64,000 nt of DNA from Corynebacterium heidelbergense (GTDB lineage: Bacteria; Actinomycetota; Actinomycetes; Mycobacteriales; Mycobacteriaceae). Position numbers and translations under genes: made by a program. The stretch covers positions 1,984,001-2,048,000 of the forward strand of contig NZ_CP063191.1 of assembly GCF_028609845.1 (NCBI RefSeq), in the 5' to 3' direction. Below, in pieces: positions 4,982 to 22,311 of the stretch (within the stretch, counting starts at the first letter, position 1; each line of letters begins with the position of its first letter). The notes beneath the pieces were generated by a model that saw nothing but the letters and a program-made list of their open reading frames with translations, was not told the DNA's origin and ran no database searches.

Positions 4982-5112
4982 CAGCGGACCTCACATATGT
5001 AGCCGGGGCCCTCCATGTGGAGAGGCACGGGTGGCATTAGTGCGTGTGCACTCAGACTGCCAGCTATCGGCTGGGTGCGCATCTTGAAGCGCAGTATTGC
5101 TCGGCCTAGGGC

Positions 5113-6432: not shown

Positions 6433-6590
6433 AGGTACTTCCTGTTCTGAATTCAGCGAGCGGACGGTGCCTGGGGGCCATATCCATTGTGTAGCTTAAT
6501 GGTTGTCCGAGTACCGATGTTCGCGTTCTTTGGCCGACCGAGCACGCCTTGGACTCGACTTGGGCCACATGCCACGAGGAAGGATGCCCC

Positions 6591-7019
6591 ATGTCCCCAG
6601 ACGCACTCCTGGATCGGGCCCGCGAAGCCGCCGCTCACGCCTATGCCCCGTACTCCACTTTTCCGGTTGGATGCGCTCTTCTTCTGCAGGACGGCAGCGT
6701 CGTCACCGGTTGCAACGTAGAGAACGCCTCCTACGGCCTGAGCATGTGCGCAGAGCGCGGCGCTATCAGCCGCATGATCATCGAGACCGGTGCCAACCGT
6801 CCGCCCTCCGCCGACAGTGCGCCTCCCCGGCCGGAGATCGTGCTGGCAGCTACCGCCGGGCTTAAAGCGGCACCCTGTTATCCGTGCCGGGCATGCCGAC
6901 AGGTTCTCCACGAGTTCGATTGCGGAGCCATCGTCGTGGAAGACAAGGAAACCAAGGGGCCAGTTGTCATCGACTTCGCCGATCTTCTTCCCCACGCTTT
7001 CGGCCCCGCCGATCTATGA
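6591..7019 (+). CDS. cdd: Cytidine deaminase
   Basis: Deaminates cytidine and deoxycytidine to uridine forms, as a zinc enzyme. The 142-residue protein has the small homotetrameric Cdd layout: YAPYSTFPVGCALL near the N-terminus, GCNVENASYGLSMCAERGA with the zinc Cys and catalytic Glu, and PCYPCRACRQVL with the remaining zinc cysteines. I chose the ATG at 6591 because GAGGAAGG lies 8 nt upstream; an in-frame ATG at 6549 lacks a site and would add 14 unconserved residues. It is followed 59 bp later by nupC on the same strand and is divergent from deoA. Confidence 0.94.
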   Translation: MSPDALLDRAREAAAHAYAPYSTFPVGCALLLQDGSVVTGCNVENASYGLSMCAERGAISRMIIETGANRPPSADSAPPRPEIVLAATAGLKAAPCYPCRACRQVLHEFDCGAIVVEDKETKGPVVIDFADLLPHAFGPADL

Positions 7020-7078
7020 CCCGGTCGGCGCTGGTCTAGGGGCCCAACTGAGCACGCTGGATTGTAAAGGACCCACTG

Positions 7079-8293
7079 ATGGATAGGCTCCAAGGCCTGA
7101 TCGGCATAGCGCTGATCTTCACCTTCTTGGTCATCTTTTCGCGCCACCGCAAACACATCAAGTGGCGGACCCTGGGCGTGGGGCTGCTGCTGCAGATCGC
7201 GTTCGCCTTGCTGGTGCTCAAGTGGAAACCTGGCTTTCATGCACTGAAGTCCGTAGCGCACGGGCTGGAAAAACTCACCGAATTCACCAACGAGGGCACC
7301 AGGTTCGTCTTCGGGGGATTGTTTCCCCAGGGCAAAGGTTTCGTCTTTGCCCTCAACGTCTTGCCCGTCATCATTGTCCTCGGTGCGATCATCGGGGCGC
7401 TGTACTACTGGCGCGTGATCCAGTACTTCGTCGACTACCTGGGGGGAGCTCTCAAACGCCTGCTCGGGACGTCCAAAGTCGAAAGCGTTTGGGCATCGAC
7501 GGTCATCTTCCTGGGCCAGTCCGAAGCACCCCTGGTGATCCGCCCATACCTGCCGAAGCTCACGAAATCCGAGTTGTTCACCTGTATGACCGGAGGCTTC
7601 GCCTCAGTCGCAGGTTCCACCGTCATCGGCTATTCGCTCCTTGGCGCACCGCTGGAGTATCTCCTGGCGGCTTCGCTGATGAACGCTCCGGGCTCCCTCA
7701 TTGTGGCCAAGGCCTTTTGGCCGGAGACGGAGGAATCCACCCTCGATGCGACCGTTAAGGACGTGCGCGATGAGGATTCGCGAAACATCATCGACGCTAT
7801 CGGGGCTGGCGCCATGGCCGGAGGGCGAATCGCCGTGGCCGTGGGCTGCCTGCTCATCGCGTTCATCGCAATCATCACCATGCTGTCGGCGATCATTGGC
7901 GGCATCGGGAGCTGGTTTGGCCACCCGGATTGGTCCCTGCAGGGGTTGTTCGGATGGGTGTTTGCGCCTCTCGCCTGGGCAATGGGGGTTCCGTGGGACC
8001 ATGCGCCACTGGTGGGTTCCTTCATCGGCGAGAAGACGGTGATCAACGAATTTGTCGGTTACACGTCGATGGGCGATAACCTTCCCAAACTGGATCAGAA
8101 GTCCCTGATGATCTCAACGTTCGCACTTGCGGGCTTCGCGAACTTCTCCTCCATCGCGATCCAGATTGGCTCGATTGGAGGGCTATGCCCTGAACGCCGT
8201 GGGGAGGTGGCCAAGCTCGGGCCGTTGGCCCTCATGGCCGGTTTCCTGGTGAATATGCTCAACGCGGCTATCGTAGGGGTGGTGGTGTTCTAA
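7079..8293 (+). CDS. nupC: Concentrative nucleoside transporter, NupC type
   Basis: Ion-coupled nucleoside uptake across the cytoplasmic membrane. The 404-residue protein is hydrophobic throughout with about eight to ten membrane segments. It carries the family signature region FLGQSEAPLVIRPYL followed by KLTKSELFTCMTGGFASVAG, and later GEKTVINEFVGYTS and ALAGFANFSSIAIQIG. AAAGGA precedes the ATG. It lies directly behind cdd, which fits uptake followed by deamination and phosphorolysis. A hairpin at 8329-8380 separates it from the convergent rplE. Confidence 0.92.
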   Translation: MDRLQGLIGIALIFTFLVIFSRHRKHIKWRTLGVGLLLQIAFALLVLKWKPGFHALKSVAHGLEKLTEFTNEGTRFVFGGLFPQGKGFVFALNVLPVIIVLGAIIGALYYWRVIQYFVDYLGGALKRLLGTSKVESVWASTVIFLGQSEAPLVIRPYLPKLTKSELFTCMTGGFASVAGSTVIGYSLLGAPLEYLLAASLMNAPGSLIVAKAFWPETEESTLDATVKDVRDEDSRNIIDAIGAGAMAGGRIAVAVGCLLIAFIAIITMLSAIIGGIGSWFGHPDWSLQGLFGWVFAPLAWAMGVPWDHAPLVGSFIGEKTVINEFVGYTSMGDNLPKLDQKSLMISTFALAGFANFSSIAIQIGSIGGLCPERRGEVAKLGPLALMAGFLVNMLNAAIVGVVVF

Positions 8294-8324
8294 CGCCCGC
8301 TTAGCCAAATCCCCAGGTAAAACG

Positions 8325-8447: not shown

Positions 8448-9017
8448 TCAGTTTGCGGAGTCGTTCTTCTTGAAGGGGAAGCCGAGCTCGCGCAACAAGG
8501 CACGGCCTTCCTCGTCGTTGGTGGCGCTGGTCACGACAGTGATGTTCATACCGCGCGGCCGGTCGATCTTGTCCACATCGATTTCGTAGAACATGGACTG
8601 CTCGGACAGGCCGAAGGTGTAGTTGCCGTGACCGTCGAACTGGCGATCAGACAGACCACGGAAGTCGCGAATACGGGGCAGGGCCACGGTCAGCAGGCGG
8701 TCCAGGAATTCCCACATCCGGTCACCGCGCAGCGTGACGCGGGCACCGATCGGCATACCTTCGCGCAGCTTGAAGTTAGCGATGGCCTTCTTCGCGGTGC
8801 GGATCTGCGGCTTCTGACCGGTGATGAGGGTCAGATCGTTGAGGGCGCCGTTGATCAGCTTGGAATCGCGAGCAGCATCGCCAACGCCCATGTTCACCAC
8901 GACCTTGGTCACGCCGGGGATCTGCATGACGTTCTGGTAGCCGAACTCGGAGTTCAGCTTCTCGCGGATCTCACCGCGGTACTGCGTCTTTAGACGGGGG
9001 GTGTAGTTGTCGCTCAT
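8448..9017 (-). CDS. rplE: 50S ribosomal protein L5
   Basis: Large-subunit protein of the central protuberance that binds 5S rRNA and contacts P-site tRNA. It is 189 residues, the usual actinobacterial length, with conserved segments [43 protein letters not shown] and RDFRGLSD. It is the last gene of the three-gene rplN-rplX-rplE transcript; unlike the textbook spc order, no S14, S8 or L6 gene follows. Confidence 0.97.
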
Positions 9018-9019
9018 CG

Positions 9020-9334
9020 TTAGATGTCCTTCCCGTTGCGCTTGGACACGCGGATCTTCTTACCGTTCTCGTCGAAGCGGTAGCCGATACGGGTCGGGTT
9101 GCCGTCGGAATCAACGATCATGACGTTGGACACGTGGATCGGAGCCTCCTGGGTCACGATGCCGCCGGACTCTGCACCACGCTCGGGAGCGGAGTTGACC
9201 ACATGCTTCTTGATGCGATTGACACCCTCCACGAGCACCTTGTCGCGCTGAGGGTAGGCCTCGATGACCTTGCCCTTGGCTCCCTTGTCGGGGCCGGAGA
9301 TTACGAGGACGGTATCGCCCTTACGGATCTTCAT
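9020..9334 (-). CDS. rplX: 50S ribosomal protein L24
   Basis: Assembly-initiating large-subunit protein near the exit tunnel. It is 104 residues with a KOW motif at the N-terminus ([22 protein letters not shown]) and the conserved VNRIKKHV segment. It begins immediately after the rplN stop codon and ends two nt before rplE, indicating one tightly packed operon. Confidence 0.97.
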
Positions 9335-9706
9335 TTACAGCACCTCCGGAGCAAGAGAGACGATCTTCATGAACTTCTTCTCACGCAGCTCACGGGCAAC
9401 CGGGCCGAAGATGCGGGTGCCGCGCGGGTCGTTGTCGTTGGCCTTGATGATGACGGCAGCGTTTTCGTCGAAGCGAATGTAGGAGCCGTCCGGGCGGCGG
9501 GTCTCCTTCTTGGCGCGCACAATGACGGCCTTGACAACGTCGCCAGCCTTCACGGTGCCACCGGGAGTGGCTTCCTTCACCGTGGCTACAACGACATCAC
9601 CGATGCCAGCGAAGCGTCGGGTGGAACCGCCGAGCACGCGGATCACCAGGATTTCCCTGGCGCCGGTGTTGTCGGCAACTCGCAGACGCGATTCCTGCTG
9701 AATCAC
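9335..9706 (-). CDS. rplN: 50S ribosomal protein L14
   Basis: Large-subunit interface protein that contacts 16S rRNA. It is 123 residues from a GTG start at 9706, which has AAGGAG six nt upstream. Motifs: [16 protein letters not shown] at the N-terminus, [29 protein letters not shown] and [14 protein letters not shown]. It heads its own transcript here: 12 kb of other genes separate it from rpsQ, its usual upstream neighbour. Confidence 0.97.
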
Positions 9707-9882
9707 TTGAGTCTCCTTGTTAGACCTAGATTTTGCGAATGTGCGTGGGATTTCCGTCCCGCACGCACGCGGTCTGCGCCCTTGCAACGGCCACACGTGG
9801 CCCAGGGCAACCCGAAGATTATGGCACGCACCTGCCCCCACCTGCAAAACCCTATGGTTTAAGTGACGCTTGCTGTGCAAGT

Positions 9883-9901
9883 TTAGGTAGTGCTAACCTA
9901 G
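9883..9901 (+). promoter_or_regulatory. DtxR-like iron box over the sip promoter
   Basis: TTAGGTAGTGCTAACCTAG matches the DtxR/IdeR consensus TTAGGTTAGGCTAACCTAA at 15 of 19 positions. It covers the -10 (TAACCT at 9894-9899) of a promoter whose -35 is TTGCTG at 9870-9875, spacer 18. Iron-bound repressor here would block the siderophore-interacting gene. A second, weaker match (13 of 19) follows at 9910-9928. Confidence 0.7.
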
Positions 9902-9909
9902 CCGAGACG

Positions 9910-9928
9910 TTAGGCTTGCCTTGCTTAA
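9910..9928 (+). promoter_or_regulatory. Second, weaker DtxR-like box before sip
   Basis: TTAGGCTTGCCTTGCTTAA agrees with the DtxR consensus at 13 of 19 positions and sits eight bp after the better box. It would place repressor just downstream of the transcription start. Weak enough to be chance on its own; its support is the neighbouring box. Confidence 0.4.
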
Positions 9929-10009
9929 CCCAGCTCGCCTTCGAACCTTTCACCCCCCTCGATCGTCGAGCACCCTCGCAACCGAGCACCACCTTGAAAA
10001 GGAGCGGCG

Positions 10010-10909
10010 GTGACATCAGCAATATCCAGCGCCTTCAGCGATACCGCGCTGCTAACCGAACCCGCCGCGCCCCCACATCGCTGGTTCCCAGCGGAGGTGC
10101 TGTCCAACGAGCTCATCGCCGGCAACGTGCGCCGCATCACCCTGCACGCGAGAGATATCGCCTCGTGGACGATGACGGGACCGGACGAGTTTTTCGGCCT
10201 CCTCATGCCACAAAGTGGCGTACCGATCGAGGACCTTTCCGCCCTACTCCACGTGCCCGCCGGCAGCAATCTGCGCGCCGTGCTCAACCGCGTACCCCAG
10301 GCCCAACGCCCCGATTTGCGGTGGTACACCGTCCGCCAATTAGACCGAGCCTCGTGCAGGTTGAGTTTCGACGTGGTTACCCACGGCGTTCGCAGTATCG
10401 GCCCGGGAACGACGGCGGGCCCCGGCCTGACCTGGGCCACCTGCGCGACCCCGGGGGACAAAGTCGGCGTGTGGACGGTTCGGGGTCTGTGGCACCGCGC
10501 CCACCAGCGCCAGTTGCTGGTGGCGGACGCGGCGGCCATGCCCTCCATTCGCTCCATTCTGGAGTTCCAGGCCACCCATAACCCCACCCAGCTCAGCCGG
10601 ATGCACGTCGTGGCCATCGTTGAATCGGACGAGGATATCGAACCGGGAATGACCAAGGAGTGGGTTGCCCGCATCGGCAGCCTCTCCATCATTCGGGCTC
10701 CGCTGTCCGAGCAGGCGGACGCTGCCGAAACCGCGATGGCGACCCTACGCTCCGCCGGGCATCCGGCAGCTCACCCGGAATACGTCTGGGTCGGCGGCGA
10801 GGGGACCATGTGCAAATTAGTCCGCGCCATGGCCGTCCGGGAATGGGGCCTGGATCGCCAGCGCATTCTGTGGTGCCCGTATTGGTTGGTCGGACGCCCC
10901 CGCCCGTAA
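10010..10909 (+). CDS. Siderophore-interacting protein (FAD-linked ferric-siderophore reductase)
   Basis: Predicted cytosolic flavin reductase that releases iron from imported ferric siderophore. The 299 residues have the SIP layout: an N-terminal FAD-binding barrel with RWYTVRQLD (flavin motif) and DVVTHG...GPG...WA...PGDKVGV, and a C-terminal NAD(P)H domain ending in YVWVGGEGTMCKLVRAMAV and LWCPYWLVGR. The GTG start has AAAAGGAG close upstream. It is first in the rightward set sip-desA-desB-desCD and lies under a DtxR-like box. Family ViuB/YqjH; the cofactor preference cannot be read. Confidence 0.9.
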   Translation: MTSAISSAFSDTALLTEPAAPPHRWFPAEVLSNELIAGNVRRITLHARDIASWTMTGPDEFFGLLMPQSGVPIEDLSALLHVPAGSNLRAVLNRVPQAQRPDLRWYTVRQLDRASCRLSFDVVTHGVRSIGPGTTAGPGLTWATCATPGDKVGVWTVRGLWHRAHQRQLLVADAAAMPSIRSILEFQATHNPTQLSRMHVVAIVESDEDIEPGMTKEWVARIGSLSIIRAPLSEQADAAETAMATLRSAGHPAAHPEYVWVGGEGTMCKLVRAMAVREWGLDRQRILWCPYWLVGRPRP

Positions 10910-10978
10910 TCGACCAATAGAGCACCTGTGGTCTGCAAGGATTTGCCCAGCAAAGGTGATACCCACCGCTCTCCCTAT

Positions 10979-10997
10979 AAAGGTTAGCCTTACCTTG
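10979..10997 (+). promoter_or_regulatory. DtxR-like iron box before the decarboxylase gene
   Basis: The segment has AGGTTAGCCT followed by TACCT, matching the DtxR consensus at 14 of 19 positions, centred between a likely -10 (TATAAA at 10976-10981) and the start codon at 11011. Repressor would cover the transcription start, giving the biosynthesis genes their own iron-controlled promoter in addition to read-through from sip. Confidence 0.65.
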
Positions 10998-11010
10998 CTA
11001 CGATGCCGCC

Positions 11011-12555
11011 ATGGCTGTTAGAACACAGCCCGTACACTCGGGCGCACTTATGAACGATTTCCTCACACACAACACAACAGCGCTCCGCAACGCGCTGACA
11101 GCCGCCGAGGAGCTGCTGGAACACCACTTCCGCACCGCAGCACAACCCTGCGGTTCCGCCACCGCAGCCGAACTCACCCGGGCCGTCCGAGAGGTGGACC
11201 TGGACAACCCCACGGGCGACCTCCCCTCCGCCCTCGCCGAGCTCAGCCCCCTGTGGCTCGACCACGCCGTCTGGTACCACCACCCCTATTACGCCTCCCA
11301 CCTGAACTGCCCCATCGCCGCCTCGGCTGTCGCCGGGGAGACCATCGCCACCAGCCTCAACACCGCCGTAGAGAGCTGGGATCAAGCGGGCGCAGCCGCC
11401 GTCATGGAACTACATCTGCTGGATTGGGTCTGCGCTCACATCGGCTGGGAGGGCCCTGGCGTCCCCAAGAACAAAGACGACGAAACGACCCCACCGGTCC
11501 GCGGGGTATTCACCTCTGGAGGCACCCAATCCAACCTCCAAGCCCTCTACATCGCGAGGGAGAAGGCACTGCGGGTCTTGAGCAACACGGGCCTGAGCCA
11601 CCAGGAAAAGATGGGGCGCCTGCGTTTCCTCACCAGCGAGGACACTCACTATTCCGTCGCCCGGGCCGTTCGCCTCCTGGGCCTGGGTGACGAAGCGCTT
11701 CTCACCATGCCAGCACCCCCAACGGCCCCCGGGACAATATGCCCGCAGACCCTCTCGGAGACCCTCGATCGCGCCGAGAAGGAGGGGTTGACGGTAGCCG
11801 CCGTCGTCGCTACGGCGGGCACCACGGATCGCGGCGCCATCGATCCACTACTCCCCATTGGCAACGTGTGCGCCGAGCACGCCACACACCTACACGTGGA
11901 CGCGGCCTACGGCGGGGCCCTCCTGGTCAGCCCCACCGCCCGGCACCGGCTCCGCGGGATCGAGTTGGCCGATAGCGTCACCGTCGATTTCCACAAGGGC
12001 TTCTACCAGCCCGTCGCCTGCAGCGCCGTGGTCTTCCGCAACCCCGCGGACCTGGGGCACGTTACCCACCACGCGGACTACCTCAATCCGCAGGACAGCT
12101 ACCTCACCCCCCAGGGCTCCACCCGGGTCAACCTGGCCGACTACTCCCTGCAAACCACGCGGCGCTTCGACGCACTAAAGCTGTGGGTGACCCTGCGGAC
12201 CCACGGCTCCCGGCCCATCGGGGAGGCCTTCGATCGGTGCTGCGAGCTGGCCGCCAACGCCGCCGAGCAGCTTCGGGAGTTTCCCAATCTTCGCCTGGTC
12301 GCCTCCCCGGAACTATCGACCCTGCTGTTCGCCCCCGCCGATCCGCAAGCGGGCCCCCAGAAGACCGTGGAGAGCGTGCGCGAACAGCTCATGGCACAGG
12401 GGCGCGCACTCGTCGCAACGACCGTGGTAGAGACCAACCCCTGCTTCAAGCTGACCATCCTGGACCCCGCCCTCACCCCCGCCGAGCTGCGCGGGGTGCT
12501 GGCTGCGGTGTCGGACCAGCTCGACCGCCAACGGCCCTTCCCCGCCGCCACCTAA
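11011..12555 (+). CDS. desA: PLP-dependent lysine (cadaverine-forming) decarboxylase, DesA type
   Basis: Group II pyridoxal-phosphate decarboxylase of 514 residues. Visible are the substrate/cofactor segments HPYYASHLNCP, FTSGGTQSNLQAL, VATAGTTDRGAIDPL, HVDAAYGGALL and the PLP-binding lysine in VDFHKGFYQP (Lys329). In siderophore loci with the next two genes, this family turns lysine into cadaverine; glutamate or diaminobutyrate decarboxylases look alike, so the substrate comes from context. Two starts are possible, ATG at 11011 (short or leaderless leader) and ATG at 11050; neither has a strong ribosome site. Regulated by the box at 10979. Confidence 0.88.
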   Translation: MAVRTQPVHSGALMNDFLTHNTTALRNALTAAEELLEHHFRTAAQPCGSATAAELTRAVREVDLDNPTGDLPSALAELSPLWLDHAVWYHHPYYASHLNCPIAASAVAGETIATSLNTAVESWDQAGAAAVMELHLLDWVCAHIGWEGPGVPKNKDDETTPPVRGVFTSGGTQSNLQALYIAREKALRVLSNTGLSHQEKMGRLRFLTSEDTHYSVARAVRLLGLGDEALLTMPAPPTAPGTICPQTLSETLDRAEKEGLTVAAVVATAGTTDRGAIDPLLPIGNVCAEHATHLHVDAAYGGALLVSPTARHRLRGIELADSVTVDFHKGFYQPVACSAVVFRNPADLGHVTHHADYLNPQDSYLTPQGSTRVNLADYSLQTTRRFDALKLWVTLRTHGSRPIGEAFDRCCELAANAAEQLREFPNLRLVASPELSTLLFAPADPQAGPQKTVESVREQLMAQGRALVATTVVETNPCFKLTILDPALTPAELRGVLAAVSDQLDRQRPFPAAT

Positions 12556-12625
12556 TCTTCCACCACTCGCGCTTTCCCCCCCACCCCCCTACCCCGTCCC
12601 TTTTAGTCGAACAGGATGCCCCCGC

Positions 12626-14047
12626 ATGAGGACCACCGAACTGCTTTCCGAAAACCCTGACCACGCCCAGCAAGATGTCTACGACATTGTGGGCATCGGC
12701 ATCGGCCCCTTCAATCTGGGGCTCGCCGCCCTCGCCCAACCCCTGCTCGATTCCGGGGAGCTCAGCGCGCTATTCCTGGACCGCGAACCAGAATTTTGCT
12801 GGCATCCGGGAATGCTGCTGCCCAGCGCCACCATTCAGGTCCCCTTCATGGCCGATTTGGTGACGCTTGCGGATCCGACGAGTCGCTTTAGCTTTTTGAA
12901 CTACTGCAAGCTGCAGGGGCGCATCCACCGGTTCTTCATCAAGGAGGATTTCTATCCGCTGCGGCGGGAGTACTCGGATTACTGCGCGTGGGTGGCCCGC
13001 CAACTGCCCTCCCTGCGCTGGGGGAGCGCAGTCACCGAGGTATACCGAGAGGACTCGGGTTTGTGGGCCGTCACCTACCGGGATAGCGCAGATCAGGACA
13101 GCTCTTCTCAGACCGTTCGGGCGCGACACATCGTCTCCGGGGTGGGAACGCAACCCTTCGTCCCGCCCGCCCTGCGCGGCAAGGAGGACGAAGAAGGCGT
13201 ATACCATTCCGCCGAGTACCTATTCCACAAGGACCGCATTGCGGATGCGGAGTCCGTCACCATCATTGGATCCGGCCAATCCGCAGCAGAAATCTACCGG
13301 GACCTCATGGAACACAGCGCCGCAAAGGGGCACCGGTTGGATTGGATCACTCGATCGCCCAGGTTCTTCCCGATGGAATACACCAAATTGACGCTGGAAA
13401 TGACAAGCCCCGAATACGCCCGGTATTTCCATTCCCTACCCACCGATATTCGGGACGCCACCAACCGGAGGCAGCGGAACTTATACAAAGGCATTTCAGG
13501 GGAGACCATTAACGACATCTACGACACCTACTATCAGCTCTCCCTCGACGAGACCCTGCCCCATCCCTTCCGGTCCACCCTGCGCACCGGGTGGAGTGCC
13601 GCCTGGGCTGAAAGCGGCAACAGCGCAGCGCACACGCTGGAGCTGACGCACGAGGAATCAGGTGCCCAGCTCATCCAGGAATCGGAAGTCGTGGTGCTCG
13701 CCACCGGCTACCGCGGCCCGACCTTCCCCGCCTTCCTGCAGCCCGCCCAGGAGCAGTTCGAATTGGACCCGAAGGGGCGGTTCGCGGTGCGCCTGGATTT
13801 TAGCGTCGATAAGGACCACACCGCGTTCGTCCAAAACGCCGAGGAACACACCCACTCCCTCACCGCACCAGATCTGGGAATGGGACCGTGGCGCAACTCG
13901 GTCATCCTCGCCGCCATCACCGGCCGGGAGGTCTACCCAATCGAACGCCACATCGCTTTCCAGACCTTCGGCACCGTCGATAGCTTCCAGCCACCCTGTA
14001 GCTCGGATACTCCGGCGCGCCACGAACAGGAGGGGCCGGCGTGCTAG
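12626..14047 (+). CDS. desB: L-lysine/cadaverine N-monooxygenase, DesB type
   Basis: FAD- and NADPH-dependent N-hydroxylase of the IucD/SidA/PvdA family, 473 residues. It makes the hydroxamate nitrogen of the siderophore. Motifs: FAD site VGIGIGPFNLGLAAL near residue 20, substrate region PGMLLPSATIQVPFMADLV, NADPH site IIGSGQSAAEIYRDL near residue 212, and ATGYRGP near the C-terminus. It follows the decarboxylase by 70 bp and overlaps the next start by 7 nt, so the substrate is expected to be cadaverine rather than free lysine. That choice is inferred from operon context. Confidence 0.92.
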   Translation: MRTTELLSENPDHAQQDVYDIVGIGIGPFNLGLAALAQPLLDSGELSALFLDREPEFCWHPGMLLPSATIQVPFMADLVTLADPTSRFSFLNYCKLQGRIHRFFIKEDFYPLRREYSDYCAWVARQLPSLRWGSAVTEVYREDSGLWAVTYRDSADQDSSSQTVRARHIVSGVGTQPFVPPALRGKEDEEGVYHSAEYLFHKDRIADAESVTIIGSGQSAAEIYRDLMEHSAAKGHRLDWITRSPRFFPMEYTKLTLEMTSPEYARYFHSLPTDIRDATNRRQRNLYKGISGETINDIYDTYYQLSLDETLPHPFRSTLRTGWSAAWAESGNSAAHTLELTHEESGAQLIQESEVVVLATGYRGPTFPAFLQPAQEQFELDPKGRFAVRLDFSVDKDHTAFVQNAEEHTHSLTAPDLGMGPWRNSVILAAITGREVYPIERHIAFQTFGTVDSFQPPCSSDTPARHEQEGPAC

Positions 14048-16620
14048 TGCAAACGCAACGCGTGGATCACGTCCTCACCTCTACCGCAGGGCTGCTCACC
14101 TTCCGGCCCCTGCGGGTAGACGGGGACATTACCGATGTGCACGCCTGGGTCACCCACCCCAAGTCGGCCTTCTGGGGTGCCCAAGGGGCCAGCGAGCATG
14201 AGGTAGCCGAGGAGTACGAGCGGATTCACGCCTCGGCTGAAGAATCGGCCTGGATCGTTGAGCGCGCAGGCGCGGCCATAGCCCTCGTGGAGACCTACGA
14301 TCCGGGGCAATCCGTGCTCGGTGAGTACGTTGCGGCGGGCACGATCCCGGGCGCGGCAGTAGGTATGCACGTTCTCGTCGCACCCCCCGAAGGCGCCCCA
14401 GAACCAGGCCTGACGAGCTGCATTTTCGCCGCCGTCATGCGCTGGCTCGTGGATGTGCACGGTGCGGACAATGTGGTGGTGGAGCCGGACGCGGCCAACG
14501 ACCTCATCATTGCCAAGAACGCGGCGGCAGGGTTTGTGGACGTCCCCGGGCTCACAGCGGTTTCCCTCCCCTTCGGGGATGGCACGAAGACTGCCCGGGT
14601 TCAGGTTTGTTCCGCTGGTGGCTTCCACGCCTCGGCGTTGGCCTCCCACGCCACCGCGAGGTTCACCGCGCCCGCGGGCGCCGCCCAACGGTCCGCCCAC
14701 CACGCCGTGCCCCCGCTGGACCCGGGGGCCCAGCACCTCGTAGAACACGGGGCGGCGATGCATCGCATCCTCCTGGCCAAGGCGCTGCGAGAGTTCATCC
14801 ACGAGCGGCTACTCGTGGCTCGGCCGATAGCGCCGGAACGGCACGAGGAACACGACGAGGACCAGCCCGAAGAACGCTTGAGCGATCGGCCGTCAACCTT
14901 CGGCGCACCCCGGGAGTACGAGGTGGACTTTGGGGGCCGTCACCTGCGCTTCACCGCCCGCCCCTACCCCCTGGAGCACCTGAAGATCGACCCACACTCG
15001 ATCCGCGCACGGGATGGTCAACCCGTGCATCTGCTCACCCTCATTGCGGCGGGTGCCGACCAATTGGGCCTCGGCGGCGACTATCTGCACACCTACCTGG
15101 CAGAAGTGCAGGCCACCCTGGCCACCCGCACCCGTGCTAGCCACCGGCCGCGACCGTCGGCCGCCACACTTGGGGCCTGCCCCTCCTCCCAATCGGGGCC
15201 CACTGATGTTCAGCGCGCCACCTACCTGCAGTTTGTGGAGGGCTCCATGGTGGAGGGGCACCCCGGTTTCGTCGCCAACGCCGGGCGGGGCGGAATGGGC
15301 GAAAGCGAGTTGGAGGCCTACGCCCCGGAGCTCGGCGATCCCTTTCAAGTGGTGTGGTTGGCCGCCCGCCGCGCCGATTGCGTCACGGAGACGTGCGCCG
15401 ACTACGGCCCCCTTTCCGGTTGCGGGCAGCGGCTCATGGGCGCGCCGATGTGGCACCGATTCTGCGACACCTTGCGATCCAAGGGCCACGATCCGGAAGA
15501 TTTCGCGCCCTTACCTGTTCACCCCTGGCAATGGGATAACCGCATAGTCAGCGCTTTCGCCCAGGACCTGGCGGCGGGCAAGCTGATCTACATCGGACCC
15601 GGCCTGGAAATCTATCGCCCCCAACAGAGCTTGCGTACCCTGTTGAGCATGTCCGATCCGACGTTGCCCTACGTCAAGACGGCCACAGCTGTGCGCAATA
15701 TGGGATTTACCCGCGGGCTTTCCCCTGCATACATGAGCAATACTCCGACCATTAACGATTGGCTGCAGAATACCGTGGCTGCGGATCACGATTTCACTGC
15801 CCATAATGTGCGCCTGTTGCGGGAGGTGGCGACGGTGGGATATGTCGGCGATGTCTATCACGGTGGCCAGACGGCGGAATCTGGGGAGAAAACCGCCTAC
15901 CAGAAGATGTTGGCTGGGTTGTGGCGGGAGTCGCCGATTCCCTTGCTGTCCGAGGGCTGTGTAGCAGCCACCCTGGCGGGCATTCTCCACTGCGACGATC
16001 ACGGCTTCCCGCTGGTCGGGGCGTGGATCGAGCGCTCCGGCCGGAACGCCCGGGAGTGGGTGGCGGCCATGCTGCGGGTCTACTTGCGGCCCACCATCCG
16101 AGCGCTGGATGAATATGCGCTCGCCTTCATGCCCCATAGCGAAAACGTCATCCTGGAACTGCGCGATGGTTTTCCAGTTGGGAGCTTCTTCAAAGACCTC
16201 GGGGAAGAGGTCGCCGTGTTGCGGGCGGATTATCCCCTCCCGGAGGAATGCGAACGAATCCGGGAGGACAAGCGGGGCACCATGACGGATGAGGAGCGGG
16301 CATTATCCGTGCAAACGGACGTTCTCGATGGGGTCCTGCGGCATTTATGTGCCATTATGGACGCCAACAACCTCCTAGCCGCCGAGGACTTTTGGCACCT
16401 GGTGCGCGAATGTGTCCTGGAATATGCCCGGGATTTCCCGGGAATCGAGGAGCGGCTGCCCCTGTTGGCCCCGGACTTCCCGCACTCCTGCCTTAACCGC
16501 CTACAGCTTCGAAATCCGACTTCCATGGTGGACCTCGGCGATCAGAATGCTTCCCTGGTGTACGCCGGCCGGATCGATAATCCGCTGTACCGAGCCGAGG
16601 CAGAGCCTAGTCTGCGGTGA
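14041..16620 (+). CDS. Fused acyltransferase / NIS siderophore synthetase (DesC-DesD)
   Basis: An 859-residue fusion. Residues 1 to about 195 are a GNAT-type siderophore acyltransferase (IucB/RhbD-like: TFRPLR, YDPGQSVLGEY, GMHVLVAP, VVVEPDAAND, AAAGF). After an Ala/Pro-rich linker, about 233-859 are an IucA/IucC NIS synthetase: EGSMVEGHPGFVANAGRGG near residue 398, PVHPWQWDNR near 491, TATAVRNMGFTRGLSP near 547, then LREVATVGYVGDVYH and GSFFKDLGEE. It should acylate N-hydroxycadaverine and join the units with ATP. In the Streptomyces des operon these are two proteins. GTG start with AGGAGGGG upstream, inside the end of desB. Its tail overlaps the convergent ATPase gene by 14 nt. Confidence 0.92.
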   Translation: MLVQTQRVDHVLTSTAGLLTFRPLRVDGDITDVHAWVTHPKSAFWGAQGASEHEVAEEYERIHASAEESAWIVERAGAAIALVETYDPGQSVLGEYVAAGTIPGAAVGMHVLVAPPEGAPEPGLTSCIFAAVMRWLVDVHGADNVVVEPDAANDLIIAKNAAAGFVDVPGLTAVSLPFGDGTKTARVQVCSAGGFHASALASHATARFTAPAGAAQRSAHHAVPPLDPGAQHLVEHGAAMHRILLAKALREFIHERLLVARPIAPERHEEHDEDQPEERLSDRPSTFGAPREYEVDFGGRHLRFTARPYPLEHLKIDPHSIRARDGQPVHLLTLIAAGADQLGLGGDYLHTYLAEVQATLATRTRASHRPRPSAATLGACPSSQSGPTDVQRATYLQFVEGSMVEGHPGFVANAGRGGMGESELEAYAPELGDPFQVVWLAARRADCVTETCADYGPLSGCGQRLMGAPMWHRFCDTLRSKGHDPEDFAPLPVHPWQWDNRIVSAFAQDLAAGKLIYIGPGLEIYRPQQSLRTLLSMSDPTLPYVKTATAVRNMGFTRGLSPAYMSNTPTINDWLQNTVAADHDFTAHNVRLLREVATVGYVGDVYHGGQTAESGEKTAYQKMLAGLWRESPIPLLSEGCVAATLAGILHCDDHGFPLVGAWIERSGRNAREWVAAMLRVYLRPTIRALDEYALAFMPHSENVILELRDGFPVGSFFKDLGEEVAVLRADYPLPEECERIREDKRGTMTDEERALSVQTDVLDGVLRHLCAIMDANNLLAAEDFWHLVRECVLEYARDFPGIEERLPLLAPDFPHSCLNRLQLRNPTSMVDLGDQNASLVYAGRIDNPLYRAEAEPSLR

Positions 16621-17401
16621 AGCCGCGGGGGGCGATGACCAAGTTTCCCCCGTTTCTTGGCTCCGCCCACACCTCAGCTTGGAGCCGATACACATCGGCC
16701 AACACCTGCGGGGTGAGGGTCTCTTCGGGTGTGCCGCGGGTGAATACCCTGCCCTCCTTGAGCACGACGATCTGATCGCTCACCCCGGCTGCCGACATGA
16801 GATCGTGCAGAACCATCACTACCGTCTTGCCCTCCCCCGCAAGTTGACGGGTGAGTTCCAGCACCTCCAACGCGTGGGCCGGGTCCAGGAAAGTAGTGGG
16901 TTCGTCGAGAAGAACCACGGGAGCATCCTGCGCCACCACCATTGCCATCCACACCCGTTGCCGCTGCCCGCCAGAAAGTTGCTGCACCTGGTGGTCCACC
17001 AAGTCTTGCGTATGCGTCAGTTCCAACGCACGGCACAGCGCCCGCCTGTCCTGCGCTGTATCGCGGTGCAAAAGACCTCGGTGAGGGTGGCGGCCCCGAG
17101 CCACCAGTTCCCCCACCGTCAGCCCCTCTGGGCACACCGGGTGTTGGGGCAGCAGGGCCACCCTACGGGCCGCGGCCGCCGCTTTGAGCCGGTGCAGGTT
17201 GTCCTCGCCCACCCACACCGATCCGGCCATGGGGTTGAGCACCCGGCTCATGGTTTTCAGCAGGGTGGATTTGCCGCATCCATTGGGGCCGAGCAGCGTG
17301 GTCACCGTCCCCGGTTCGGCGCGCACGGTCACCTCCTCCACCACGGCCCCGGCGCCATACCCGACCGAGAGGTTCTCCACGCTGATGCCCTGAACTGCCA
17401 T
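16607..17401 (-). CDS. Ferric-siderophore ABC transporter, ATP-binding protein
   Basis: Cytosolic ATPase of a FecE/FepC-type iron-siderophore importer. 264 residues with Walker A GPNGCGKSTLLK, Q-loop region LLPQHPVCPEGLTV, signature LSGGQRQRVWMAM, Walker B VVLLDEPTTFLD and the switch histidine in VLHDLM. The start I use (ATG at 17401) shares one base with the stop of the upstream permease gene and has GGAAGGG before it. Last gene of the leftward operon SBP-permease-permease-ATPase. Confidence 0.93.
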   Translation of the reverse strand: MAVQGISVENLSVGYGAGAVVEEVTVRAEPGTVTTLLGPNGCGKSTLLKTMSRVLNPMAGSVWVGEDNLHRLKAAAAARRVALLPQHPVCPEGLTVGELVARGRHPHRGLLHRDTAQDRRALCRALELTHTQDLVDHQVQQLSGGQRQRVWMAMVVAQDAPVVLLDEPTTFLDPAHALEVLELTRQLAGEGKTVVMVLHDLMSAAGVSDQIVVLKEGRVFTRGTPEETLTPQVLADVYRLQAEVWAEPRNGGNLVIAPRGFTAD

Positions 17402-18456
17402 CACGCCACCCTTCCGTTCTTTTGCACGCCACGCCATACCAACCACACCAACACCGGCCCGCCGACAATGGCGCTGGTCAACCCCACGGGTGCGGCGAAG
17501 GGGAGGAATCCGGCCAGCACTCCACATCCTGCGAGCACGGCTGCGCCCGCGGCCGCTGAGGACAGGAGCTGAGGCGTAGGTGCCCCAGACACGATCCGCG
17601 CGACCTGGGGTGCCATGAGCGCGACAAACCCGATGGGCCCCACCAGGGAGACGACTACTGCAACCACCCCGGTGGCGGCCAGAAGTACACAGGCCCGGGT
17701 GCGCCGCACGTCCACCCCGAGGGTGGTTGCCGTCGCGTCATCGTGGGCCAGCAGGCCGATCTGTCGCTGCGCCCACAGGCCGATCAGGAGGAATGGCGCA
17801 AGCCCCAAGCACAGCGGCAGCAGCGCCTCTATGCGCACGAAGGCCGTGGATCCCGCAAGCCAGGTCTGGGCGTCCGCAGCTCGGTGCATGTCCGCCCGGG
17901 CCAAGGCGTAGTAGACCAGGGCGTTGGCCAACAGGGACAGTGCGAGCCCCACCAGCACGACCCGTTGCGCCGAACTGAACCCGGCCAGTGCAAACAGCAG
18001 CCCAACTACTATTGCAGCCCCCAGCAATCCCAGGCCCGCTCGCCACCAGAACAGTGGTACCTGCTGGGCCCACTCCGGGCGGAGCAGGACAGTCCCCCAC
18101 ACCACACACACCGCCGCTCCCCCGGAAACCCCGAGAATGTCCGGGGAAGCCAACGGGTTGCGGGCCATGACCTGGGTCCAGGATCCCGCCGCGCCCAGGG
18201 CGGCGCCTGCCACAACGGTGGCCACGGCCACCGGCAACCTCAGCTCCCACACCACGGTAATCGCCCGTGTGGATCCGCCCCCCGTGAGTACGTCCAGCAC
18301 CTGCAGCGGGCTCAGCTCCACCGGGCCCTGCCCCAACATCACGCAGTAGGCGGCAGCGGCCAGGGCGCTGAAGCCCACCGCCGTGAGCAGCTCGCGGCGC
18401 AGTCGACGAGCGTGGACAGCGTGGACCCGCTGGGCCGGGTCGGTTGTGACCATCAC
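17401..18456 (-). CDS. FecCD-family iron-siderophore permease
   Basis: Integral membrane subunit of the importer, 351 residues with about nine or ten hydrophobic helices. FecCD signatures: GAALGAAGSWTQVMARNPLASPDILGVSGGAA, here read as separate conserved pieces (GAALG, NPLASPDILGVSGGA), and VGPIGFVALMAPQVAR, the loop that contacts the ATPase. Starts with GTG overlapping the stop of the preceding permease (GTGA), so the two are translationally coupled and probably form a heterodimer. Confidence 0.93.
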   Translation of the reverse strand: MMVTTDPAQRVHAVHARRLRRELLTAVGFSALAAAAYCVMLGQGPVELSPLQVLDVLTGGGSTRAITVVWELRLPVAVATVVAGAALGAAGSWTQVMARNPLASPDILGVSGGAAVCVVWGTVLLRPEWAQQVPLFWWRAGLGLLGAAIVVGLLFALAGFSSAQRVVLVGLALSLLANALVYYALARADMHRAADAQTWLAGSTAFVRIEALLPLCLGLAPFLLIGLWAQRQIGLLAHDDATATTLGVDVRRTRACVLLAATGVVAVVVSLVGPIGFVALMAPQVARIVSGAPTPQLLSSAAAGAAVLAGCGVLAGFLPFAAPVGLTSAIVGGPVLVWLVWRGVQKNGRVA

Positions 18457-19595
18457 GCGACGGCCTTTGGTTCGGGCGCGCGGCTTTTGGCGTCCTCAAG
18501 AGGCATCAATGCCGGGACGGCGACCGCCCGCCGCCGACCTGCCCACCGCCGACGATTGCGCCGCGGTCCCCGGCGCCGGACCACTGCGATCATCAAGGGA
18601 GCCCCGACGATGGCCAGCACAACGGACATTTCCAACTCACCCGGGCGCATGACGAACCGCCCGAGCACGTCCGCAACCAGGGCCATCTGCGCCCCCACCA
18701 CCGCGCAGGCGGGCAGCAGACGGGTCAGGGCGGGCCCCGTCGCCCACCGCACCACGTGCGGCGCCGCGAAACCGACGAACAGGACCATCCCCACAGACGC
18801 CGTCGCCGTGCCCGCGAGCACGACAATCGCGACCGCCGCCAAGAGCCGCACCCGGCCAGCGCTCACCCCCAGGCTCGCGGCAGCCTCCTCCCCCATGGCA
18901 ACGAGATCCAGCGGCCTGGCCACCACCGCGGCCAACACGCCCCCGGCCGCCAGGCCCGCCGCGGCCAGTGCGACATCGCCCATGCCCCGGCCCGAGGTGG
19001 AACCCACCGCCCACATCCGCACCCCGTTGAGCGCCGCGCCGGTGTACAAACTCAGCACGTTCATCACCGCCTGGAAGCACAGCATCACTCCAATGCCGAC
19101 AAGCACCATCGTCATGGGCTCCCGCGCCCCCCGGGCCACCAATAGGACCACGGCGGCCGCCAGCGCAGCGCCCGCAAGGGCCAAGCCAGTCCGACCCGCC
19201 GCCGTCGCCGCCCACCCCACGGTCGCCCCTGCGGCCACGGCGCACCCGGCTCCCGCATTAACCCCCAGGATTCCGGGATCCGCCAGGGGATTGCCCGTCC
19301 AGACCTGCGCTATCGCCCCGGCGATCGCCAGCGCAGCACCGACCGCCATCGCCAGCAGGGCCCTGGGCGCGCGCAGCTGCCACACCACATCGTGCAGCGC
19401 GGCGAACTCCCCGGTACTTCCCCGCTGCACCTGCCCCGGCCCAGCCAGCAGCGCCCGCACAACCTCCCCGGCCCCCGCCCCGTGAGAACCGAGGAACAGG
19501 GAGCCGACGGCCGTGGCGACCAGAACTAACCCGGCCAACACCAGCGCTGCAGAGGCGTTCGGGCGGCGCATCTCACCGCGCACAGCTACGCTCAC
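18453..19595 (-). CDS. FecCD-family iron-siderophore permease
   Basis: Second membrane subunit of the importer, 380 residues, very rich in Ala and Val. Motifs: PRALLAMAVGAALAIAGAI, NPLADPGILGVNAGAG and VGFAAPHVVRW (the ATPase-contact loop). The GTG start overlaps the stop of the binding-protein gene by four nt and its stop overlaps the next permease likewise. The C-terminal 40 residues are basic and Arg-rich, longer than in most family members. Confidence 0.92.
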   Translation of the reverse strand: MSVAVRGEMRRPNASAALVLAGLVLVATAVGSLFLGSHGAGAGEVVRALLAGPGQVQRGSTGEFAALHDVVWQLRAPRALLAMAVGAALAIAGAIAQVWTGNPLADPGILGVNAGAGCAVAAGATVGWAATAAGRTGLALAGAALAAAVVLLVARGAREPMTMVLVGIGVMLCFQAVMNVLSLYTGAALNGVRMWAVGSTSGRGMGDVALAAAGLAAGGVLAAVVARPLDLVAMGEEAAASLGVSAGRVRLLAAVAIVVLAGTATASVGMVLFVGFAAPHVVRWATGPALTRLLPACAVVGAQMALVADVLGRFVMRPGELEMSVVLAIVGAPLMIAVVRRRGPRRNRRRWAGRRRAVAVPALMPLEDAKSRAPEPKAVA

Positions 19596-20626
19596 AGGGA
19601 GGATTTCAGCTGCTCAATGGCCCAGGGGATGGTCACCGGGTTGGGCATGCTCATCGCATTCCCCGTGTCCTCCGACAGGAAGCGCACCTTGCCCTGCCGT
19701 ACCACGTCGAGGTTGTTGAAGGTCGGTTCCTTGCGCACGGCATCCACGGCACCCTGGTAGTCCAGGACGAACAGGTAGTCCACGGAGTTGAGCTGATCGT
19801 AGTTCTCCGGGGCGATATCGCGGTAGAAGGTTTTGCCGTCGCCCTCGAGTTCCTTGGGGATGTCAAAGCCGAGGGATTCGATGAAGGCACCGCGACCGTC
19901 GCCGGAGGTGTACAACCCCAACTTGCCCTGGTAGGGCATCACCACCGCGGCCTTTTTGCCCTGTAGTTCGGGGTGGTTCTTACGGAACTCTTCGAAGGCC
20001 TTGTTTGTGCGCCCAATGAGGTCCTCCCCCTTGTCCTTCTTGTCGACGGCCCCAGCAATGGTCTTTACCTGGTCCTGCCACGGGATTTGCCAGTCCTGGG
20101 TGCCCTCGGGTTTAAGGGTGGTGGGCGCGATTTTGTTCAACGAGTCGGCGGCCTGCTTATCCACGGCCTGGTTGACGGCAATGATCTTGGTGGGGTCCGC
20201 CTTGGTGACCTCCTCGATGACCTGCGGGGTGAAGCCGCGGGCCACGTCGTAGATCACACTCGGTTTTTTGTCCCCCAGCAGGTCTTTGGCCCAGGGGCCC
20301 ACACCGGAGGCGTCCACGTCGCCCTTCTGCCCCCATGCGGCGATTGTTACGGGGGCGACGCCAAGAGCCAGGAGCGTGTCAGAATCACCCAGCCCCAGGG
20401 AGGCAACACGCTCGTTGGTGCCCTGGGTGCCGGCCTGGTCCGACCCATCCACGTTCCCCTTAGCGCATCCCGCCGACACCAGCCCGGCGGCCACAATGGT
20501 GGCGGCGAGTGCCTTGAGCCGGGTGCGTCGACCGCGGTGGGACGGCGCGGCACCCGCGGGCGGCGAGTCCGACGACGCTTCGCGGTGGGTTCCACCGTGA
20601 GTTAGGGGAACTAGAGATGTTGTCAT
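19592..20626 (-). CDS. Siderophore-binding lipoprotein of the ABC importer
   Basis: Extracytoplasmic solute-binding protein of the FepB/FhuD class III fold, 344 residues. A lipobox LVSAGC places the lipidated cysteine at residue 54 after an unusually long N-region that ends in RGRRTRLKAL, which could direct Sec or possibly Tat export. Conserved pieces: ERVASLGLGDSDTLLALGV, PEVI-like FTPQVIEEVTKADPTKII and LFVLDYQG. It heads the leftward importer operon. AGAGG precedes the ATG, and its promoter at 20669-20698 is filled by a DtxR-like box. Confidence 0.9.
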   Translation of the reverse strand: MTTSLVPLTHGGTHREASSDSPPAGAAPSHRGRRTRLKALAATIVAAGLVSAGCAKGNVDGSDQAGTQGTNERVASLGLGDSDTLLALGVAPVTIAAWGQKGDVDASGVGPWAKDLLGDKKPSVIYDVARGFTPQVIEEVTKADPTKIIAVNQAVDKQAADSLNKIAPTTLKPEGTQDWQIPWQDQVKTIAGAVDKKDKGEDLIGRTNKAFEEFRKNHPELQGKKAAVVMPYQGKLGLYTSGDGRGAFIESLGFDIPKELEGDGKTFYRDIAPENYDQLNSVDYLFVLDYQGAVDAVRKEPTFNNLDVVRQGKVRFLSEDTGNAMSMPNPVTIPWAIEQLKSSL

Positions 20627-20668
20627 GCGTGCCTCTTTAACGTTGCTACTTAGTTTCGATAAGAGGTG

Positions 20669-20698
20669 AATGTAGCAAGGCTAGCCTATTTAAAGCAA
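20669..20698 (-). promoter_or_regulatory. Promoter of the siderophore importer operon
   Basis: Read on the minus strand: -35 TTGCTT (20693-20698), an 18-bp spacer, -10 TACATT (20669-20674). The start site would be about 35-40 nt before the lipoprotein start codon. The spacer is occupied by the iron box at 20676-20694. Confidence 0.55.
20676..20694 (-). promoter_or_regulatory. DtxR-like box 1 of the importer operon
   Basis: Contains AAGGCTAGCCTA, the core of the DtxR palindrome (AGGTTAGCCTA in the consensus). It lies between the -35 and -10 of the importer promoter. An identical 13-bp core (GCAAGGCTAGCCT) repeats exactly 20 bp further at 20695-20707. Confidence 0.6.
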
Positions 20699-20714
20699 GG
20701 CTAGCCTTACCCAT
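20696..20714 (-). promoter_or_regulatory. DtxR-like box 2 of the importer operon
   Basis: Contains CAAGGCTAGCCTTACC and resembles the DtxR palindrome as well as box 1 does. It overlaps the -35 of the importer promoter. The 20-bp spacing between boxes is close to two helical turns, so two repressor dimers could bind on the same face. Confidence 0.55.
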
Positions 20715-20884
20715 GGGTTCGGCCAGCACACGGACCGAACGGTCACGTACGGCGACGTCCCTAGCGCCGGCTCTCGACCCGACAGAGTCCGACCTCCCTG
20801 ACGCCAGCGGCTGCTCTCACCACCCCGCGAACAGGCCTCGCCCAGCCCGAAGCATCCCGCACCCCATGTCAAATTTGTTTGACT

Positions 20885-20900
20885 GTAAAGCTTCTTTTAC
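20885..20900 (+). promoter_or_regulatory. Inverted repeat upstream of the membrane protein/XRE pair
   Basis: GTAAA at 20885-20889 and TTTAC at 20896-20900 flank six bp, just after a TTTGAC -35-like hexamer. It could be the operator of the adjacent XRE regulator. The short arms make this tentative. Confidence 0.35.
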
Positions 20901-20944
20901 TTAGGCTCGGTTACGACCCACAGGCATCTTTGGAGGAAGGGACC

Positions 20945-21406
20945 ATGCCGAACACCCAGCACCCACCCACCAACTACCGCTATGGCCTCGTCCGCGGCAC
21001 ACGCAACGTGCCAGCGCTGCCTGCAGCCCTTCCCCTCGGCCTTCTGGTTTCGGCGGTGCTGGCGTGTGTGAATCTCGCCGTCACCTCCGACGGGTCCTCA
21101 CCGTGGCTGAGCACGCTAGTTTGGGGCATGGCTGTCACACCCGCCGCTACGGCGTTGGCATGGGTGGCACTTGTGGACCGAGGATCTCTCCCCGGCGCCG
21201 TAGCCAAACCCGAAGAGGCCGTCGAGAGCACGTGGTACGCCTCTGCGGCGTCCGATGCTTTCCACATCCTGCTAGCCGCCACTGGACTCGGCGCATACAT
21301 GGCCATGTTCTGGCATCGCCCTACCATCGCCTTGACGCTCTCCGCCGTGTTCGGAGCCGCCGCTCTGACCTTCGGCATAAGCTACACCGTGCGGAAAGCC
21401 CGCTAG
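20945..21406 (+). CDS. Small membrane protein of unknown function, paired with an XRE regulator
   Basis: Not recognised. 153 residues with four predicted membrane segments: around AALPLGLLVSAVLACVNLA, GMAVTPAATALAWVALV, FHILLAATGLGAYMAMFW and ALTLSAVFGAAALTFGI. The ATG at 20945 has GGAGGAAGGG upstream, much better than an in-frame upstream codon. A likely -35 (TTTGAC at 20878) and a small inverted repeat (20885-20900) precede it. Six nt separate it from a 65-residue XRE-type regulator. Such membrane protein/HTH pairs are common in Gram-positive bacteria and often self-regulated; no function is claimed. Confidence 0.7.
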   Translation: MPNTQHPPTNYRYGLVRGTRNVPALPAALPLGLLVSAVLACVNLAVTSDGSSPWLSTLVWGMAVTPAATALAWVALVDRGSLPGAVAKPEEAVESTWYASAASDAFHILLAATGLGAYMAMFWHRPTIALTLSAVFGAAALTFGISYTVRKAR

Positions 21407-21412
21407 AGGCTC

Positions 21413-21610
21413 ATGAGGAACCGAGTCTCCGAGCTGCGCCGCCAGCACAGGTTTTCGCAGCAGGGATTGGCGGAGCGCCTAGGGGTGACGCGACAGACCG
21501 TCATCTCCATCGAGAAGGGCCGGTTTTGCCCGTCCCTGCCCCTAGCATTTCAAATAGCTGCAGAGTTCCAGCTCCCCATCGAGGACATCTTCTACCCAGA
21601 CCCGCGTTAA
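21413..21610 (+). CDS. XRE-family helix-turn-helix regulator
   Basis: 65-residue DNA-binding protein consisting of little more than one HTH domain: RVSELRRQHRFSQQGLAERLGVTRQTVISIEKGRF, then PSLPLAFQIAAEF and the closing IEDIFYP. This is the compact YgzD-like type found beside small membrane proteins. AGAGG lies directly before the ATG. It should bind its own promoter; the inverted repeat at 20885-20900 is the nearest candidate site. Last gene of the accessory block before the S10 operon. Confidence 0.85.
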   Translation: MRNRVSELRRQHRFSQQGLAERLGVTRQTVISIEKGRFCPSLPLAFQIAAEFQLPIEDIFYPDPR

Positions 21611-21649
21611 CCGGGCGATTGCACCGGCGAGCAGCCACAGACACACCGA

Positions 21650-21692
21650 AACCCCCATTCTCCCGGCAGTACAGCCAGGAGAACCGGGGGTT
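21650..21692 (-). terminator. Terminator hairpin of the S10 operon
   Basis: AACCCCC (21650-21656) pairs with GGGGGTT (21686-21692), and inside it TTCTCC (21658-21663) pairs with GGAGAA (21678-21683), with a small internal bulge. On the minus strand only a short U-rich tail follows (UUUC). It lies between rpsQ and the convergent XRE gene and may serve both. Confidence 0.6.
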
Positions 21693-21763
21693 GTAGGTAT
21701 CGAGAGCGAGCCAGAGCGCCTTCAGCCGTGCCCGGCCATAGAACAGCCTGGCAGGACGGGAAA

Positions 21764-22081
21764 CTACTTGGCCTTCTCCACGATGGTGACCAGGCGGAAG
21801 TGCTTGTCCTTGGACAGCGGCCGGGTCTCCTCGATGCGGACGCGGTCACCCACGCCCGCGATCTCGTTTTCGTCGTGCGCCTTCACGCGGGTGTTGGTAC
21901 GCATGATCTTGCCGTACAGGGCGTGGCGCTTGCGGTCCTCGAGCTCAACCACGATGGTCTTGCTCATCTTGTCGGACACCACGTAGCCGGTGCGGACCTT
22001 GCGGGCACCCTTCGTGCGCGCCGCAGCGGCCTCGGCCTTGGTCTTTGGTTGGTTCACAGTTGCTCCGTTTACGTCGCTCAT
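21764..22081 (-). CDS. rpsQ: 30S ribosomal protein S17
   Basis: Primary 16S rRNA-binding protein. 105 residues, including an N-terminal extension of about 25 residues typical of actinobacteria, then [39 protein letters not shown]. Its ATG overlaps the rpmC stop by four nt. It is the last gene of the S10 operon; rplN, its usual successor, lies 12 kb further on. Confidence 0.96.
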
Positions 22082-22311
22082 GCAGCGTCACCACCCGGGC
22101 TCGTAGAAAGTCCGAGCTCGCGCTCGCGCAGGACGGTGTAGATACGGGCGATGTCCTTCTTGACCACGCCCAGTCGACGGTTATTGCTCAGCTGGCCGGT
22201 GGCCATCTGGAAGCGGAGGTTGAACAGCTCCTCCTTGGACTCGCTCAGACGAGCGGTGAGCTCGTCATTGCTGAGGTCGCGGAGTTCGTGTGCCGGAGTT
22301 CCGGTAGCCAT
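22078..22311 (-). CDS. rpmC: 50S ribosomal protein L29
   Basis: Tunnel-exit protein of the large subunit, 77 residues. Conserved pieces are [24 protein letters not shown] (here [19 protein letters not shown]) and [15 protein letters not shown]. Its start abuts the rplP stop codon and its stop overlaps the rpsQ start, so it is fully embedded in the operon. Confidence 0.96.

Follow-up and report, generated by a model that had tools for sequence, protein, structure and literature searches.

Siderophore enzymes in which an acyltransferase domain of the GNAT type is joined in one chain to a nonribosomal peptide synthetase-independent siderophore (NIS) synthetase domain have been described in several bacteria. 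DfoC of Erwinia amylovora, encoded by the dfoJAC operon for desferrioxamine E (PMC6391442), carries acyltransferase-like and NIS domains in a single chain of 787 residues, while published accounts present BibC of Aliivibrio (Vibrio) salmonicida as a fusion protein (PMC5577590, PMC8891985) and BsbCD1 of Tenacibaculum mesophilum as a single chimeric open reading frame of 810 residues (PMC6164419). In Streptomyces, the same domains serve the same pathway but are encoded by separate genes, desC and desD. In this study we analyzed a 64,000-nucleotide stretch of the Corynebacterium heidelbergense genome (contig NZ_CP063191.1, positions 1,984,001 to 2,048,000; hereafter the window), in which one gene, herewith designated desCD, encodes both domains in 859 residues.

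With a probability of roughly 0.9, desCD is one gene for an acyltransferase-NIS fusion of the known GNAT-NIS type, predicted to make a desferrioxamine-type siderophore. The finding is ordinary, because fused forms are common and have been reported from other bacteria before; desCD is an ordinary member of the widespread type represented by DfoC, BibC and BsbCD1. The original prediction took the two activities to reside on separate proteins in the known pathways, but this is wrong in view of the published BibC and BsbCD1 fusions, which we compared with desCD by their published descriptions, and of the DfoC chain (5o7o), which aligns through both domains (desCD residues 15-851 to chain residues 15-785, E 6.4e-125). 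A relative from Erwinia mallotivora (P0199) shares 35% identity with desCD, and the fused protein of Corynebacterium propinquum DSM 44285 (locus L038) shares 43%.

The desCD gene and its domains

The gene and its parts are as follows.
14041..16620, + strand: desCD, fused acyltransferase-NIS synthetase, 859 aa (frame, Pfam, 5o7o match)
14028..14035, + strand: Shine-Dalgarno-like AGGAGGGG upstream of the GTG start of desCD
14119..14544, + strand: GNAT domain PF13523, residues 27-168 (Pfam, E 1.5e-29)
14611..14751, + strand: interdomain linker, residues 191-237 (borders of profiles chosen by us)
15229..15990, + strand: IucA/IucC domain PF04183, residues 397-650 (Pfam, E 1.1e-65)
16054..16524, + strand: C-terminal domain PF06276, residues 672-828 (Pfam, E 1.6e-29)

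The frame runs from GTG at 14041, which overlaps the stop codon TAG of desB at 14045-14047 in the frame layout, to TGA at 16618-16620 without internal stop, whereas shuffling the mononucleotides of the same stretch 1000 times gave open runs of at most 382 codons over the three forward frames. As to the domains, the search of both halves located PF13523 in the N-terminal part and PF04183 and PF06276 in the C-terminal part, so that frame and Pfam agree with the proposal of one uninterrupted reading frame carrying a siderophore GNAT domain and a full IucA/IucC synthetase. The linker between residues 190 and 238, with its borders taken from profiles that we cut out of our own alignment (A1), consists of 47 residues including 13 Ala, 6 His and 4 Pro.

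An in-frame ATG at residue 240 (14758) lies near the domain border, at the beginning of the NIS part, and could be taken as the start of a second protein. It is preceded by no clear Shine-Dalgarno sequence, Met240 is not conserved across an alignment of 40 sequences, and the frame is unbroken; with a single open frame and an internal ATG of this kind, we consider desCD to be one gene. The production of two proteins, through an internal start or a frameshift, is thus hardly credible, and neither of these two events, on which the original prediction would have fallen, is indicated by the sequence. A frameshift or assembly artefact was also rejected, since the fused frame is present in four other Corynebacterium genomes.

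Eight residues of the GNAT domain (H110, E148, D150, N153, N160, G164, F165 and K183) are invariant in all 76 fused and all 24 split domains compared, and desCD retains every one; among such residues the His and Asp have a catalytic role in MbtK. We accordingly rejected a decayed acyltransferase half, even though a nearly universal Asp, discussed below, is missing. Also discarded were the NCBIfam names SbnF, SbnC, FslA, diaminobutyrate decarboxylase and histamine N-monooxygenase, the matches to which were far under the cut-offs.

Predicted product and ring size

Two genes on the same strand precede desCD, in the order desA-desB-desCD.
11011..12555, + strand: desA-like pyridoxal phosphate-dependent decarboxylase (PF00282, Pfam); the real start is possibly 11050
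12626..14047, + strand: desB-like N-hydroxylase (PF13434, Pfam)

A decarboxylase gene and a predicted diamine N-hydroxylase gene thus accompany desCD, as in the gene sets of the DfoC/BibC type. For the desA-like protein the best solved chain is 5o5c, a decarboxylase of desferrioxamine biosynthesis; for the desB-like protein the best is 6xbb, followed by 5o8p, named as a hydroxylase of desferrioxamine biosynthesis. The matches to 5o5c and 5o8p bear out the desferrioxamine-type gene set that had been proposed. The GNAT domain of desCD is predicted from its sequence to succinylate N-hydroxycadaverine, and the NIS domain would then likely link the units and close the ring to give a desferrioxamine-type siderophore.

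With respect to ring size, the published enzymes include a fused trimer-maker (DfoC), a fused dimer-maker (BibC), a split trimer-maker (DesD) and split dimer-makers (MbsD and PubC), as far as these are described (PMC5577590, PMC8891985, PMC6164419). Dimer- and trimer-makers occur among fused as well as among split enzymes, so the size of the ring is not determined by fusion alone, and the suggestion that fusion influences the choice between dimer and trimer finds no support in a set of enzymes that fills all four combinations. A stronger form of this suggestion, in which the fusion both channels the acylated monomer and determines the size of the ring, would fit one reported experiment: in combination with MbsA-C, the C-terminal part of BibC alone yielded chiefly acyclic intermediates, linear bisucaberin B being six times as abundant as the ring. 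Such an outcome might be expected after loss of a helpful neighbor domain, though the authors of the experiment attribute it to less effective ring closure, at any rate in E. coli (PMC4178481). The C-terminal part of DfoC, in contrast, is reported to yield desferrioxamine E still when combined with MbsA-C (PMC5577590), and fused and split states alternate repeatedly along well-supported branches of the tree described below, making a decision of ring size by the fusion very improbable; channeling between the domains of desCD may at most be surmised. In the case of BsbCD1, the C-terminal part was reported to be inactive in E. coli, possibly because it was unexpressed (PMC6164419). The natural misreading of such a gene is herewith corrected: fusions of this kind are widespread, and ring size is not explained by fusion alone.

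Dehydroxynocardamine is a trimer, and AlcC is a dimer synthetase. The NIS half of desCD scored 382 bits against DesD, 369 against DfoC and 348 against AlcC, and the fused protein of C. propinquum gave the same order (DesD 381 versus AlcC 324 bits). Strains of this species are reported as makers of dehydroxynocardamine (PMC12188740, PMC11296517). Taking the C. propinquum product together with the scores of DesD over AlcC, a trimeric desferrioxamine is the better guess and no more; as judged from these comparisons, the product is likely a trimer, nocardamine or similar to desferrioxamine E, with perhaps a capped product besides. A cyclic dimer of the bisucaberin type, as described for the fused BibC, which would differ in this respect from desCD, is unlikely in view of the higher scores of the NIS half for DesD and DfoC than for AlcC and of the compound reported from the species with the same-genus fused relative.

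Several observations weigh against this overall reading of desCD. A relative from Photobacterium, the product of which is unassigned, shows the reversed order (DesD 652 versus AlcC 677 bits), and with this reversal and the small gap between DesD and AlcC the scores are no calibrated test of product. The desB-like protein matches a putrescine N-hydroxylase (7us3) as its third solved chain with a good score (1.5e-108), so that the assignment of the diamine is tentative. The DtxR consensus used below for the search of iron-control sites is not fitted to the C. heidelbergense genome. Finally, desCD and its two nearest relatives lack the Asp that stands two positions ahead of the GMH motif (window 14338-14370, residues 100-110). 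Among the matches listed, 233 of 239 homologues with the motif have this Asp, desCD being one of the six without, and in the tree set it is conserved in all 24 split domains and in 69 of 76 fused ones; with a residue of this near-universality missing, the acyltransferase of desCD could be altered.

Following from the last point, the acyltransferase half might be weakened or its donor changed, with another enzyme supplying part of the monomer, for which a stand-alone PF13523 protein encoded elsewhere in the C. heidelbergense genome, the DesH-like GNAT protein described below, is the candidate. Against this stand the complete set of invariant residues, the GC content at third codon positions of the GNAT domain (0.76), similar to that of the NIS parts (0.73-0.78), and the role proposed for desH of Streptomyces coelicolor, which is to make an acetylated unit and not to substitute for desC (PMC12161575). 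We consider such a loss or change improbable, and retain the prediction that both activities are present in desCD.

Occurrence of fused and split forms

A search for other fused homologues, as had been suggested, was fruitful. The three domains PF13523, PF04183 and PF06276 occur together in 120 of 120 homologues (the best 120 of 540, desCD included) and in 119 of 120 (the best 120 of 4670) collected around a fused relative from Pseudoalteromonas, the exception being a piece of 448 residues, and our own two profiles gave equal fused counts for both lists. Among the best 80 named genome loci listed, out of 583 relatives, 75 are fused and 5 split. These lists favor fused forms as they are ranked by full-length score. 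For a fairer sample we took 296 genomes evenly from the phylum and counted strong matches (E 1e-30 or better): 20 genomes matched, with 2 fused genes (one that of C. heidelbergense itself), 15 pairs of split neighbors and 3 other NIS types. Within the genus Corynebacterium, the gene is present in 5 of 37 genomes and is fused in all five.

The fused gene of another Corynebacterium genome (G031, locus L004) is identical in DNA to that of C. propinquum DSM 44285 over an open run of 2676 bases. In respiratory Corynebacterium, NIS core proteins have been labelled as GNAT family N-acetyltransferases (PMC12188740). A literature search for NcdE and NcdF returned nothing.

A quick tree was constructed of 100 NIS domains (76 fused, 24 split), for which we picked 42 from a set of 240 proteins and 58 from a set of 119 loci, leaving out BibC, PubC and MbsD, with support by the Shimodaira-Hasegawa-like approximate likelihood ratio test (SH-aLRT) alone. 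This tree needs at least 11 changes between fused and split states, 7 of them unavoidable in view of branches whose SH-aLRT is at least 95, while its 18 Corynebacterium sequences are all fused and form one group with support 100. A potential desD start that shares four bases with the end of desC, stop codon included, is available in 19 of the 24 split loci. Of the remaining five, L024, L095, L116 and L119 have both domains in one frame with a stop between them, and L117 matches neither pattern. The spacing is also alike: the linker of the 76 fused proteins has a median of 33 residues, and the gap of the 24 split pairs a median corresponding to 38 residues. In a single case, the fused gene of Streptomyces orinoci (L090), an ATG lies near the place of the desD start in split relatives. 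From these arrangements we infer that small changes of frame or stop join or part desC and desD in place, in which case the fusion would most simply represent a desC-desD pair that happens to be in frame, and the chemistry need not change. Close fused and split sister enzymes offer a comparative set for asking whether tethering alters the ratio of products.

In Glaciecola amylolytica (L098), the fused protein is matched over its full length twice in tandem (3586-5922 and 6001-8316), an arrangement reminiscent of the Tenacibaculum bsb cluster, in which the C and D genes are described as duplicated.

Gene neighborhood and a remote desJGH-like trio

The remaining features of the cluster and its borders are given below; the reductase gene, desA, desB and desCD lie on the plus strand and are followed by importer genes on the opposite strand.
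8448-9703, - strand: rplE, rplX, rplN
9883..9901, + strand: weaker DtxR-like box between the rplN and reductase genes (3 mismatches, looser pattern)
10010..10909, + strand: siderophore-interacting reductase (PF08021, PF04954; Pfam)
10979..10997, + strand: DtxR-like box before desA (3 mismatches to the consensus, 1 to the looser pattern)
16607..17527, - strand: ATP-binding cassette (ABC) ATPase (Pfam)
17401..18456, - strand: FecCD-type permease
18453..19595, - strand: FecCD-type permease
19592..20626, - strand: iron-siderophore binding protein (PF01497, Pfam)
20691..20714, no strand assigned: two overlapping weaker DtxR-like matches before the binding-protein gene (3 mismatches each)
21764-22728, - strand: rpsQ, rplP

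The 3' ends of desCD and the ABC ATPase gene overlap by 14 bases. The box before desA is the sole site with the DtxR consensus, against 0 in 100 shuffles, and the looser pattern gave four matches, two of them overlapping, at three places in the 64-kb window against 0.03 expected. These sites suggest that the des cluster may be under iron control; the box at 9883..9901 could serve either of its neighbors, rplN or the reductase gene. A scan for promoters of the sigma-70 type found 0 against 1.5 expected, and terminator-like sites stood at chance level (7 against 7.3 expected).

The siderophore cluster sits within a run of ribosomal protein genes (window 8448-22728), between rpsQ and rplN. No Pfam family matched a 175-residue open frame at 20879-21406 (+ strand), which lies between rpsQ and the gene of the binding protein. 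The same cluster fills the same rpsQ-rplN gap in two more Corynebacterium genomes (L121 and L123), the latter carrying an extra, partial rplE match. The des and importer genes of Corynebacterium sp. TAE3-ERU12 (L034) adjoin rplN, and the des genes adjoin rplE in C. tapiri (L037) and a partial rplE match in Corynebacterium sp. MSK130 (L036). In C. propinquum the importer relatives are placed otherwise than in C. heidelbergense, and none of five ribosomal proteins searched for was found in the 6-kb flanks of its locus.

At a distance of about 556 kb, the same genome carries a second group of genes, which resemble genes of desferrioxamine synthesis.
L124 1167-5695 (contig C1, about 1433166-1437694): desJGH-like trio

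This trio, in which a siderophore-interacting reductase is joined by a PF01804 penicillin amidase and by another acyltransferase of the PF13523 family, and which a transporter of the major facilitator superfamily adjoins, resembles desJ, desG and desH of S. coelicolor, and its PF01804 and PF13523 genes lie within 1 kb of each other, in agreement with the rule described for desGH (PMC12161575). In S. coelicolor, loss of desG or desH is reported to lower desferrioxamine B about 1000-fold and 16-fold, respectively, with a rise of E, and nine reported producers without desGH made, according to the same account, only E and other uncapped forms (PMC12161575). Among the 37 genomes of the genus searched, the full amidase is present in C. 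heidelbergense only, with a weak partial match in one other (G018). A pattern search detected no DtxR-like box at the trio, and the tree of GNAT domains failed to place the DesH-like protein (branch length 1.87; the row of the same-order genome G050 was only a quarter filled).

By analogy with S. coelicolor, capped siderophores are predicted for C. heidelbergense, and a Corynebacterium with a likely capping locus thus gives a testable prediction on the siderophores of the genus. A wider proposal, that desC and desD switch recurrently between fused and split states, with Corynebacterium on the fused side, and that the remote desJGH-like set gives capped forms similar to desferrioxamine B besides the rings, is possible but tentative, the odds being somewhat against it. 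What is added to the known systems is slight, namely the recurrent pattern of fusion and splitting and the remote trio.

In the same-order genome G050 (L126 690-1400 and C1 1005348-1007921), a siderophore-interacting reductase gene is divergent to amidase and acyltransferase matches, which lie in one frame, each within an open run of 896 residues; a split desC-desD pair is located about 5 kb away.

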